Shown here: in pieces, positions 18,452-59,841 of the stretch | Layout: the number at the start of each line of letters is the position of its first letter | Position numbering within the stretch: the stretch's first letter is position 1 | NCBI RefSeq assembly: GCF_038051925.1 | Contig: NZ_CP150634.1 | Span: 4,100,300-4,164,299, forward strand | Direction of reading: 5' to 3' | DNA from: Methylotuvimicrobium sp. KM2 | GTDB taxonomy: Bacteria > Pseudomonadota > Gammaproteobacteria > Methylococcales > Methylomonadaceae | DNA length: 64,000 nt | Program-made: the position numbers and the translations under genes | Notes under the pieces: generated by a model | The model's database searches: none | The model's input: the letters and a program-made list of their open reading frames with translations, nothing else | Told to the model about the DNA's origin: nothing

Positions 18452-19642
18452 TTATTCGATAATGGAAGCAACAACGCCCGCGCCAACGGTACGGCCACCT
18501 TCACGAACCGCGAAACGCAAACCTTCTTCCATCGCAATCGGCGCAATCAACTTCACTTCAACGTTGACGTTATCGCCCGGCATCACCATTTCCACGCCTT
18601 CCGGAAGATCGACCGCTCCGGTTACATCCGTTGTTCTGAAATAAAATTGTGGACGATAGCCATTAAAGAATGGTGTATGACGCCCGCCTTCGTCTTTCGA
18701 CAATACGTAGATTTCCGCCTTGAAATGGGTATGCGGCTTAATGGTGCCTTTGTGCGCCAAGACTTGTCCGCGTTCAACTTCGTCTCTTTTGGTGCCTCTT
18801 AACAAGACCCCAACGTTATCGCCCGCTTGACCTTGATCCAATAATTTACGGAACATTTCCACGCCGGTGCAGGTTGTGGTTGTAGTCGGTCTGATTCCGA
18901 CAATTTCAATCTCTTGCCCAACCTTAATGATCCCACGCTCGACACGCCCGGTAACCACTGTGCCGCGACCGGAAATCGAGAACACGTCTTCAATCGGCAT
19001 TAGGAACGGCTGATCGATCGCACGCTCAGGCTCTGGAATATAGCTATCTAAGGCCTCGACCAATTTAATGATCGACGGCACGCCAATTTCACTGGTATCG
19101 CCTTCCAAGGCTTTTAACGCCGAGCCGATAACTAACGGGGTATCGTCGCCCGGAAATTCGTACATGTCCAATAATTCTCTGACTTCCATTTCCACTAATT
19201 CGATCAACTCGGCATCATCCACCATATCGGCTTTATTCAAATAAACCACGATATAGGGAACACCTACTTGACGCGCTAATAATATATGCTCACGAGTTTG
19301 CGGCATCGGACCGTCGGCCGCCGAACAGACGAGGATAGCTCCATCCATTTGTGCCGCACCGGTAATCATGTTTTTGACATAGTCAGCATGGCCCGGGCAG
19401 TCCACATGCGCATAGTGGCGCGCATCCGATTCGTACTCCACATGAGCCGTTGCGATTGTAATGCCACGCTCGCGCTCTTCGGGGGCGTTATCAATTTGAT
19501 CGTAGGCCTTGTAGACGCCGCCACGCGCATCCGCCATCACTTTTGTCAATGCCGCGGTCAATGTGGTTTTACCATGATCGACGTGACCGATGGTTCCTAC
19601 GTTTACGTGTGGTTTTTTACGTTCGAATTTTTCTTTGGACAT
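18452..19642 (-). CDS. tuf: Elongation factor Tu, copy 2 (tRNA-tufB operon)
   Basis: The 396-residue protein is identical to the copy at 2204-3394. It has the same G motifs (GHVDHGKT at 19-26, NKAD near 136) and barrel domains. It is preceded by tRNA-Tyr, -Gly and -Thr and followed by tRNA-Trp and secE, the layout of tufB in gammaproteobacteria. The differences from copy 1 are synonymous and concentrated at the 3' end, where this copy ends in GAA rather than GAG. The upstream sequences of the two copies diverge immediately before the ATG. Confidence 0.98.
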
Positions 19643-34201: not shown

Positions 34202-34262
34202 GGGTGTGAATAATTACAAGTAAGCACGCTAGATTGCTCGGTTGACATCTCTCGGCGGCAGG

Positions 34263-34343
34263 GCAGATTTTTGCTCCTGCAAAATCTGCATTCACGCCAT
34301 CCATGCCGTTTGCAGATTTTTGCTCCTGCAAAATCTGCATTCA
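34263..34343. repeat. Two tandem D palindromes
   Basis: Two nearly identical units, each GCAGATTTTTGC-TCCT-GCAAAATCTGCATTCAC, lie at 34263-34298 and 34312-34343. Each forms a hairpin with a four-base loop. The second runs directly into an A element (34344). The same palindrome is present as a perfect 20-bp stem at 59729-59772. Confidence 0.75.
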
Positions 34344-34407: not shown

Positions 34408-34464
34408 TTTACGAGGTCCTGCAAGCGAATTACCGAACCTGCTACAAAACTCATAATTACAGTA

Positions 34465-34753
34465 ACGTTCATGTAGGTCTGGCCATCGCCCCGGCAAATG
34501 AAAGTTCTCTGGTGGCGGAGGGTGCGGTCACTCGCCCGACAGGACGCCGTGAACCCAGCACCTAAATTACGCAAGATAGTTAGCATAGCCAAAGGGCTAT
34601 GGAATTTAGGTGCTGGGTGAATACGTCCATGTAGGCTCGACGGCGGCTGTCGATCGAGCCACCGCCCCCTCTCCGGAACCGGCATTTTCTCTGCCGAGCT
34701 TCTTATATCGAAAAATTAGATAAAGAACCAAAATCTACGAACTTTCACAGTAA
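34465..34753 (-). mobile_element. F-family MITE-like element, copy 2, carrying an A insertion
   Basis: Leftward this region matches the element at 54989-55247: CATCGCCCCGGC outer end, AAATGAAAGTTCTC, the GGTCACTCGCCCGACAGG arm, the shared core GACGCCGTGAATACGTCCATG, the CGAGCCACCGCCCCCTC arm, and TTCGATATAAGAAG/TAGATAAAG...TTTCACAGTA. The core is interrupted by A copy 1 (34554-34617). The far end has lost the outer repeat. Confidence 0.7.
34554..34617 (+). mobile_element. A element, copy 1, inserted in F copy 2 with 4-bp duplication
   Basis: Perfect 15-bp terminal inverted repeats CCCAGCACCTAAATT (34554-34568) and AATTTAGGTGCTGGG (34603-34617) bound this 64-bp unit. It is flanked by TGAA on both sides (34550-34553 and 34618-34621), whereas the homologous F copy at 54989-55247 has a single TGAA at the same place. 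The element has no coding capacity and would need a transposase supplied from elsewhere. Confidence 0.75.
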
Positions 34754-42107: not shown

Positions 42108-42352
42108 TACTCCCTTTTGCTTGAAAAACCGTCGAAGAATAAAAGGTATGGGATATGTCTATCGAGGATCGCCGTTCACCCAGCACCTAAATTATTCAAG
42201 GCAATTAACCATGGCCAATGGATCATGGAATTTAGGTGCTGGGTAAACCCATCCATAGGGGCTTGACGGCAGCGCTCCCTGCTGCCGACATCCTCGCTAG
42301 CCACAACCCATACCTTCATAAAGTTAACCATTTTTTGAGTATATAGGGAGTA
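42108..42352. mobile_element. C-family MITE-like element, copy 1, carrying an A insertion
   Basis: TACTCCC (42108-42114) and GGGAGTA (42346-42352) are perfect inverted ends, extended by imperfect pairing (CTTTTG...GAAAAACC against TTTTTTGAGTATA, and AAAAGGTATGGG against CCCATACCTT). Without the 65-bp A element at 42179-42243 it would match the 176-bp copy at 49679-49854. TA at both ends may be a target duplication, as in Tc/mariner-IS630-type elements (inference). It fills the gap between mltB and dacA. Confidence 0.75.
42179..42243 (+). mobile_element. A element, copy 2, inserted in C copy 1
   Basis: CCCAGCACCTAAATT and AATTTAGGTGCTGGG form the same perfect 15-bp ends as copy 1; the unit is 65 bp. 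It interrupts the C element after GCCGT, where the intact copy reads GCCGTGAACCC (49742-49752). The flanks TTCA and TAAA are plausible decayed forms of a TGAA duplication. Confidence 0.75.
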
Positions 42353-44678: not shown

Positions 44679-44807
44679 TGACAAACGGATAACGCTTTCC
44701 AATGAAGACTTTCCATGAAATACCGTTGACGGCAGTGATAACGAAGAATATCGGCGATAATATGCCCTATCCGAATAATCTGCATCCCATTGCATAAGAA
44801 TAAAGCG

Positions 44808-46476: not shown

Positions 46477-46665
46477 TTAAGGAATATGCACAAAATAACC
46501 TATACAAGTAGTAGGCTTTGTGGCGGTTTGGTGACTCGCTTGACAGGACGCCGTGTATACGTCCATGTAGGCTTGACGGCGGCTATCCCTGCCGCCGACA
46601 CCTGTCAATCGAGCCACCAAACCCCCTTCCGACAGTTGTCTAAGTTATTTCATGCTCGTTCCTAA
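46477..46665. mobile_element. B-family MITE-like element, copy 1
   Basis: The ends TTAAGGAATATGCACAAAATAAC and GTTATTTCATGCTCGTTCCTAA are imperfect inverted repeats, continued inward by TTTGTGGCGGTTTGGTGACTCG against CGAGCCACCAAACCCCC. The interior carries the shared core (ACAGGACGCCGTGTATACG, then TTGACGGCGGCTATCCCTG). It is 189 bp, with TAA at both borders as a possible duplication, and sits between lipA and tex. Confidence 0.75.
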
Positions 46666-49678: not shown

Positions 49679-49854
49679 TACTCCCTTTTGATTGAAAAAC
49701 CGACTAAGAATAAAAGGTATGGGATGTGTCTATCGAGGACCGCCGTGAACCCATCCATGGGGGCTTGACGGCAGCAATCCCTGCTGCCGACATCCTCGCT
49801 AGCCACACCCCATACCTTCACAAAGTTAGCTAATTTTTGAGTATAAAAGGAGTA
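49679..49854. mobile_element. C-family MITE-like element, copy 2 (empty-site form)
   Basis: TACTCCC and GGAGTA are the inverted ends; AAAAGGTATGGG and CCCATACCTT lie inside them. The 176-bp element contains the shared core GACCGCCGTGAACCCATCCATG followed by TTGACGGCAGCAATCCCTGCTGCCG, and it has no A insertion. It serves as the reference for copy 1 at 42108. Confidence 0.75.
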
Positions 49855-54988: not shown

Positions 54989-55247
54989 GCCGGGGCGATG
55001 GCCGGGCCTTCATGAGCGGTACTGTGAAAGTTCGTAGATTTTGGCTCTTTATCTAATTTTTCGATATTCAACACAATGCCGGTTACGGAGAGGGGGCGGT
55101 TGCTCGGCCGACAGGCGTCGGCGGCAGGACAGCCGCCGTCGAGCCTACACGGACGTATTCACGGCGCCCTGTCGGGCGAGTGACCGCGCCCTCCCCACCC
55201 GAGAACTTTCATTTTTGCCGGGGCGATGGCCGGGCTTTCATGAACGT
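54989..55247 (+). mobile_element. F-family MITE-like element, copy 1 (empty-site form)
   Basis: The unit is bounded by direct GCCGGGGCGATGGCCGGGC copies at 54989 and 55217, each followed by TTTCATGA or CTTCATGA. Inside are GAGAGGGGGCGGTTGCTCGG and GCGAGTGACCGCGCCCTC arms around a core with GACAGCCGCCGTCGAGCC and CGGACGTATTCACGGCGCC, which is the shared core in reverse. A single TTCA is present where copy 2 has an A insertion. It lies between the HD-GYP gene and parA and has no gene. Confidence 0.7.
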
Positions 55248-55252
55248 TAAGA

Positions 55253-59123: not shown

Positions 59124-59615
59124 ATGAGATTGAAAATAGCCCTGCTAATTTTACTGACATTGGCGTTAGGCGCCTGCGGATACCGACTACAAGGAACCGT
59201 CGACCTCCCCGACGATATCAACAAGGTTTATCTGCAGGGAGCTTCGGGCAGTCTGCGCGACCACTTTACTCGGACATTGAGATCATCTCCCGTGCGGATC
59301 GTCGATTCGATCGGCCAAGCCGAGTTGGTGATCAATACGTTGAATGAAAAACTGGATAGGCGCGTTTTGTCGCTAAGCTCCATCGGCAAAGCAAACGAGT
59401 TCGAATTAAATTACAAATTGGAATACGAACTTTTGGATAATCAAGGCGCCGTTCTGGCTCGCAATCAATCGGTCGAAATTATCCGGGAATATTACAACGA
59501 CCAGGAAGCGGTCATTGCTCAAGCCAACGAGGAACAAGTAATTATTAACGAAATGTACAAACAAGCGGTACGATCAATTCTCGACCGCACACGAACCCAA
59601 CTTCACAAATATTAA
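59124..59615 (+). CDS. lptE: LPS-assembly lipoprotein LptE
   Basis: The 163-residue outer-membrane lipoprotein has a signal ending in ALGACGYRLQG (lipobox GAC), then SLRDHFTRTLRSS and an otherwise variable sequence typical for LptE, which plugs the LptD barrel. The leuS-lptE-holA order is conserved. Its stop codon TAA is formed by the first bases of a B-family repeat, so the true original C-terminus may have been altered. Confidence 0.88.
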   Translation: MRLKIALLILLTLALGACGYRLQGTVDLPDDINKVYLQGASGSLRDHFTRTLRSSPVRIVDSIGQAELVINTLNEKLDRRVLSLSSIGKANEFELNYKLEYELLDNQGAVLARNQSVEIIREYYNDQEAVIAQANEEQVIINEMYKQAVRSILDRTRTQLHKY

Positions 59616-59841
59616 GGAATATGCACAAAATAACTTCCATAAGCATTAAGCTTTGTGGCGGTTTAGTGACTCGCTTGACAGGACGCCGTGAATACGTCCT
59701 TAAAGACGGCTATCTGAACGCCAGGGATGGCGTGAATGCAGATTTTGCAGGAGCAAAATCTGCATTCACGCCAACACCTGTCAACCGAGCCACCAAGCCC
59801 CCTTCCAAAATTTGTCGAAATTATTTCATGCTCGTCCCTAA
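59612..59841. mobile_element. B-family MITE-like element, copy 2, between lptE and holA
   Basis: TTAAGGAATATGCACAAAATAAC and GTCGAAATTATTTCATGCTC at the ends, and the inner GGCGGTTTAGTGACTCGC/CGAGCCACCAAGCC arms, match copy 1. The core ACAGGACGCCGTGAATACG is present, and a D palindrome (59729-59772) lies in the loop. The length is 230 bp. It starts inside the lptE stop codon and ends three bases before the holA start. Confidence 0.75.
59729..59772. repeat. D palindrome, 20-bp perfect stem
   Basis: GGCGTGAATGCAGATTTTGC (59729-59748) and its exact inverse (59753-59772) flank an AGGA loop. It would form a very stable hairpin in the lptE-holA message. Shorter copies of the same palindrome lie at 34263-34343 and, decayed, at 25276. 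Confidence 0.85.

Follow-up and report, generated by a model that had tools for sequence, protein, structure and literature searches.

The window, a stretch of 64,000 nucleotides from the methanotroph Methylotuvimicrobium sp. KM2 (contig NZ_CP150634.1), lies within a complete genome of 5,002,976 bases and contains six repeats of three families, B (starting at 46477 and 59612), C (42108 and 49679) and F (34465 and 54989). A first-pass annotation had described these repeats as sharing one GC-rich core inside different ends. Its coordinates were correct to within a few bases and the core was found in all six repeats, but the complete apical module, hereafter called the head, is whole or nearly so in just three of them, those at 46477, 49679 and 54989. 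The elements and their parts are as follows.

46478 to 46665, plus strand: B element with ends GGAATATGCAC.../...CGTTCC and a TAA target duplication (46478-46480 and 46663-46665); head nearly whole, one bulge base altered.
46522 to 46626, no strand assigned: basal stem P1 of this B element, an inverted repeat (26 nt, 88%) with arms at 46522-46547 and 46601-46626.
46550 to 46572, plus strand: head hairpin H1 of this B element, GCC-bulge-TAC-[GTCCAT]-GTA-GGC; the minus-strand loop reads CATGGACG.
46574 to 46600, plus strand: head hairpin H2 of this B element, loop with TCC (AGGGA on the minus strand).
59613 to 59841, plus strand: second B element with a TAA duplication; H1 present, a nested palindrome (59728-59773) in place of H2.
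42108 to 42352, plus strand: C element with a TA duplication; an inserted cap hairpin (about 42179-42243) interrupts the head.
49679 to 49854, plus strand: second C element; head whole (H1 49742-49764, H2 49766-49792), the H1 stem being the CCC/GGG version.
About 34457 to 34753, plus strand: F element; a cap hairpin (34554-34617) at the bulge splits H1, and H2 is truncated; ends placed by eye.
About 54989 to 55248, minus strand: second F element; head on the minus strand at 55110-55173, with a shorter H2 loop; ends placed by eye.

In the general layout, family-specific ends lead into a family-specific basal stem P1, which bears a constant head at its apex. The head is a module of about 52 nt in which two hairpins, H1 and H2, form a three-way junction with the basal stem. 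H1 consists of GCC, a GTRAA bulge, three variable pairs (NNN/N'N'N'), a six-base loop NTCCNT and GGC, and H2 is a stem with a TCC-bearing loop. The motif C[NTCCNT]G is nearly constant in both hairpin loops and reads CANGGANG on the opposite strand. In the H1 stem, families B and F have TAC/GTA and family C has CCC/GGG; the folds are very stable. We are highly confident that this two-hairpin module is common to B, C, F and further families. A small palindrome, GTGAATGCAGATTTTGC...GCAAAATCTGCATTCAC, lies at 34260-34335 and 59728-59773, nested in or beside elements and adjoining a GTGAA/TTCAC motif. Elsewhere in the window, two stretches that are 98% identical (2204-2503 and 18452-18751) form the 3' ends of two minus-strand ORFs of 396 aa, which from their size may be duplicated EF-Tu genes.

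A profile of the core, one of the checks proposed in the first-pass annotation, gave matches far above chance. Searched against 864 kb in all, namely the window and 40 evenly spaced 20-kb stretches, it gave 86 copies at E<1e-3, while the reversed-sequence control gave six matches at E<10, the best among those listed having an E of 1.5. Extrapolation suggests about 500 head copies per genome. Nearly full-length copies of the B type number at least 25 in the genome, 40 of 478 candidates having been scored. The similarity of the core was upheld on careful alignment, with a mean column identity of 81% over 25 selected heads.

Families B, C and F, like those related to them, consist of small mobile palindromes that are non-autonomous and MITE-like: they are short, non-coding and multicopy, have terminal inverted repeats and target-site duplications (TA, TAA or 9 bp), and are missing from the corresponding sites of relatives. 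Empty sites were read in sister genomes at 89-94% identity. The C element at 42108, with its TA duplication, has an empty site in G003, G004 and G005, and also in G002 as judged from alignment boundaries. For the B element at 46478 (TAA) the site is empty in G003 and G005, again also in G002 by alignment boundaries, and is rearranged in G004; for the B element at 59613 (TAA) it is empty in G002. Conversely, a G-type element with a head and a TA duplication is present in G002 and an H-type element (CAGCAATTCCCA...TGGGAATTGCTG) with a 9-bp duplication is present in G003, the window lacking both. The head of this H-type element is damaged and was missed by the pattern script; H-type copies with whole heads in the KM2 genome (L107, L113) have similar duplications of 9-10 bp by eye. 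The empty sites correspond to the insertion of whole elements, and the module therefore rides with three duplication lengths, which probably reflect different transposition systems, each family probably being moved by its own transposase. Thus the repeats do differ in their ends, as first described, and in their duplication lengths, yet they share one structured module. Modular, chimeric elements and a repeatedly captured structure, the two explanations offered at the time, both fit, and the module recurs across Gammaproteobacteria. Insertion of the head into a pre-existing terminator hairpin was also considered and was not supported in the sister pair G347/G406, where at three orthologous sites G406 lacks the element and has no arms alone; other repeats (by eye) or unalignable sequence are found there. 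A further mobile repeat is represented by a 376-bp insertion in G003 at window positions 44725-44730, with a GTTGAC duplication; the pattern script detected no head within it.

The elements also receive insertions. A cap hairpin, CCCAGCACC...GGTGCTGGG, some 60-85 bp long, interrupts the head at the GTRAA bulge and is bordered by TRAA at either end, its left junction occurring 19 times in the 864-kb sample against 47 intact H1 hairpins. At least 10 complete examples were found, including that at 34554-34617 in the window, and caps also lie in loci L095, L099, L108, L112, L121, L122 and L127; the hairpin at 42179-42243 is the same cap with altered junctions. As the cap lies repeatedly at GTRAA, the bulge is a preferred target of another element. 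Separately, two copies in G347 (L235, L236) have a different element within the H1 loop of the head.

Covariance analysis of the stems, likewise proposed at the outset, revealed compensatory changes in and beyond this genome. Among the 25 heads chosen from the KM2 genome, 98.5% of pair cells were standard and double changes occurred in 12 of 21 pairs, as compared with at most 50.5% paired when the structure was slid along the same heads. In other genomes (70 heads from 65 loci searched) double changes were seen in 18 of 21 pairs, and 97.4% of cells were paired versus at most 42.4% in the slid control. G-U pairs were scarce in both sets, with 2 among about 510 paired cells here and 1 among about 1,350 elsewhere. 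The loop letters of the 70 heads are nearly fixed except at two positions per loop. In H1 the closing C-G, the TCC and the final T are each present in 70/70 heads, and all four bases occur at the remaining two positions; in H2 the corresponding counts are 70/70 for C-G, 69/70 for TCC and 67/70 for T. When the loop was left free in the search pattern, NTCCNT was still found in 44 of 45 paired H1 hairpins of the genome sample.

Orthologous heads were compared by eye at shared sites of three sister-species pairs. They show 10 differences in total: four at loop N positions, two that make up one compensated pair, one at the bulge R, two in linkers and one that turns a pair into G-T. Six of these separate G563 from G528 (three loop N, two linker and the stem position changed to G-T), two elements at the same site whose intergenic flanks barely align and whose outer arms have changed together with their partners. 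The other four separate G385 from G762 (one loop N, one bulge R and the compensated H1 pair), where one nearby arm position changed without compensation. In G717 and G604 the heads are identical within a locus that is about 85% identical overall. Such a pattern would be expected from selection on the head combined with DNA-level correction between the arms, for example by template switching. Because arm correction yields covariation without selection on RNA, covariation alone is no proof of RNA function, and in palindromic DNA this warning extends to perfect covariation.

Of 369 gammaproteobacterial genomes sampled, 74 proved positive for the head with a covariance model (R1), and they represent 65 of 271 genera. 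Scoring was limited to 14 candidates per genome, making the copy counts lower bounds, and the model was seeded with TCC loops and could miss very different ones. A phylum-wide sample gave 30 positives among 398 genomes, 28 of which belong to the same class; the two outside it are single weak matches each (E 6e-4). Stenotrophomonas, Xanthomonas, Marinobacter, Zobellella, Thioalkalivibrio and Methylomonas were among the matches listed in a pattern scan of named genomes, and the close relative Methylotuvimicrobium buryatense 5G also has the head. Plasmids, E. coli genomes and phages, searched by blastn with the 79-nt core, yielded no match at the E limits used. The basal stems in other genomes examined are mostly unlike those found here, and are shared by close relatives such as L071 and L072. 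Within several genomes (G528, G347, G129, G312 and G123; L165-L184, L219-L237, L298-L308) they vary from copy to copy, yet remain almost perfectly complementary. Descent of all families, ends included, from one ancestral element would make the head a functionless middle part kept alike by age or gene conversion while the ends diverged. The ends of B and D, which seem related by eye (GGA...AAATAAC in both), and the rapid in-place evolution of arms that stay complementary are in keeping with such a history. It is nevertheless very improbable in view of the different ends and the duplications of 2, 3 and 9 bp, the retention of the head motif in 65 genera though the stems differ, and the constraint on orthologous heads.

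The first-pass annotation had regarded the repeats as a candidate for an undescribed system. For the sharing of the head between element families and genera this stands, no description having been found in open-licence papers, but it does not stand for the YPAL/RU-2 repeat of Yersinia (168 bp): by eye, the printed Y. pestis RU-2 sequence has the same H1 and H2, with loops that read CATGGATG and CAAGGATG on the GGA-reading strand (PMC2759123). According to the passages available, YPAL is mobile and intergenic like the elements studied here, with target duplications of 3-26 bp at targets that span or adjoin dyad symmetry (PMC2229807). The elements here differ from it in forming several families with other ends and duplications of 2, 3 or 9 bp, and their head occurs in 65 of 271 sampled genera. 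By eye, their ends are unlike those of the printed RU-2, and the 2-bp duplication of C falls outside the 3-26 bp in the YPAL passages, the 3-bp duplication of B being at the edge of that range. The Rfam family Ysr224 (RF02770, Yersinia sRNA 224), aligned over its whole model length, matches positions 46505-46604 on the plus strand (24.2 bits) and 55112-55213 on the minus strand (27.2 bits), both below the gathering score of 70 bits, and the elements are not assigned to this family. Ysr224 probably represents a copy of YPAL that was entered as an sRNA, and its place among the 20 most prevalent bacterial sRNA annotations, as given in the portion of the source consulted (PMC9029176), would then be due to its being a mobile repeat.

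The finding is thus one of MITE-like palindromes characterised by an internal head, YPAL/RU-2 being the sole described head-bearing member, as far as found. Repeats that, as far as found, were described from Yersinia alone, one of them as an sRNA, are joined into a class-wide super-family whose defining feature is an internal module and not the ends, and one module is present in elements with different transposition signatures.

The elements resemble the REP/BIME sequences associated with RAYT transposases (GTAG super-family, PMC3733652, as far as the consulted part goes) in being short, multicopy, intergenic palindromes, and differ in that two hairpins sit on a long stem between MITE ends. 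In H1, the GTA could not be equated with the GTAG tag: it forms one side of a covarying stem, changing with TAC and becoming GGG (family C), GGA, GTC or GTG. The idea that the core serves a RAYT transposase as its REP was also rejected. The genome has five Y1_Tnp (RAYT-like) matches (L031-L035), and exact core motifs were absent within 1.5 kb of them, the sole exception being the 8-nt GCCGTGAA, which lies within the L035 gene; the flanks of L034 and L035 carry other repeated palindromes (GTGGGAGCGA..., GTAGCCCGGATG...).

The loops offer a possible reason for the retention of the head, namely that something recognises both of them in sequence. The best candidate would be a CsrA/RsmA dimer, whose predicted action is to grip both GGA hairpins of the same transcript. 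The RsmE consensus is given as 5'-(A/U)CANGGANG(U/A)-3' in the consulted part of the source (PMC6849547). Both minus-strand loops read CANGGANG within a hairpin loop closed by C-G and vary at the N positions of that consensus. CsrA-sequestering RNAs of the CsrB/RsmZ type have the same kind of hairpin loop, with ANGGA closed by C-G. They are the products of dedicated genes, unlike the motif described here, which lies in mobile repeats. If the GGA strand were transcribed by read-through, the element would act as a CsrA-binding decoy or tag, its basal-stem arms being kept complementary by correction at the DNA level. From the loop sequences we tentatively propose, at somewhat less than an even chance, that the head is a putative CsrA-docking module carried by MITE-like elements. 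More doubtful is the wider proposal of mobile CsrA decoys, in which the about 500 palindromes here and others across Gammaproteobacteria, each with a ready-made putative CsrA hairpin pair, would seed or sponge the regulator's sites, the head having been captured by MITEs with different transposases. No link of such repeats with CsrA was found in the titles, abstracts and passages of open-licence papers that were available.

Several features count against CsrA as the ligand. It leaves the conserved GTRAA bulge and the linkers unexplained; the scarcity of G-U pairs is expected for a constraint on DNA or on both strands, and covariation restricted to Watson-Crick pairs points to a DNA-level constraint. 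The two linker differences and the one G-T among the 10 sister-species differences are counted on the same side. The main rival is recognition of the head as DNA: once the palindrome is in single-stranded or extruded form, its two looped hairpins and its bulge would be recognised by a protein of transposition, recombination or replication. The head would then aid the movement or survival of the palindrome and hence occur in families with different ends, and the likeness to CsrA sites would be coincidental. The almost purely Watson-Crick pairing fits this well, as do the lack of a clear orientation preference in this genome (see below), the high mobility and nesting, including the second hairpin inserted at the GTRAA bulge, and the reported YPAL duplications and dyad-symmetric targets (PMC2229807, consulted passages). 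The lack of exact core motifs around the Y1_Tnp matches speaks against it, and so do duplications of 2, 3 and 9 bp with element-specific ends, as in ordinary cut-and-paste transposition. Such transposition needs no head, and we know of no protein with such a loop motif. We consider recognition as DNA a serious possibility, rated at about one chance in three.

With regard to CsrA itself, this genome has one csrA copy. From about 100 positives, 80 head-bearing genomes were chosen and tested (78 of them positive by the model, G010 and G021 by blastn), and csrA was present in 79. The class sample has 74 head-bearing genomes, and csrA was found in 69 of these; of the five without it, which count against the CsrA reading, four are less than 90% complete and G235 is 98% complete. 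Among genomes at least 90% complete, csrA occurred in 62 of 63 with heads versus 218 of 251 without (Fisher one-sided p=0.003, ignoring kinship), which counts in favour of it.

Orientation was counted relative to genes called by a simple ORF script. In tandem-gene gaps of this genome both orientations are about equally common, with 25 TCC-sense and 21 GGA-sense heads, or 26 and 24 in a second count. Outside this genome GGA is the rarer sense strand. TCC versus GGA was 10 versus 3 in one set, 9 versus 2 in a set including congeners, and 20 versus 8 (p=0.036) and 17 versus 7 in further sets; these sets overlap and were not summed, and the 17-versus-7 set includes a few doubtful pattern-found heads (L273, L276 and one in L289) and loci shared with the 20-versus-8 set. 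A cis-regulatory CsrA site in mRNAs is thus unsupported by the orientation counts. The GGA-sense deficit might reflect a cost of having CsrA sites in mRNAs, or else CsrA may play no part at all. The excess of TCC in mRNA outside the genus would suit a role of the TCC strand as RNA, or a robust hairpin of a generic kind at the ends of genes (acting as terminator, mRNA stability element or RNase III site), as has been proposed for other bacterial MITEs. The stable folds agree with such a role, as does the excess of convergent over divergent sites here, which was 16 versus 6 (background gaps 63 versus 61), or 19 versus 11 with another gene calling. A generic hairpin, however, needs neither near-invariant loops nor a bulge, both orientations are common in this genome and G-U pairs are lacking, and we regard this explanation as improbable.

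If the loops do bind CsrA, transposons would both supply and absorb the binding sites of a global regulator; if they do not, the class-wide conservation of the head implies some other ligand. As a separate observation, the number of csrA-family matches varied between genomes, with 7 to 9 per genome in G512, G336, G380 and G286 and one or two in most others listed.
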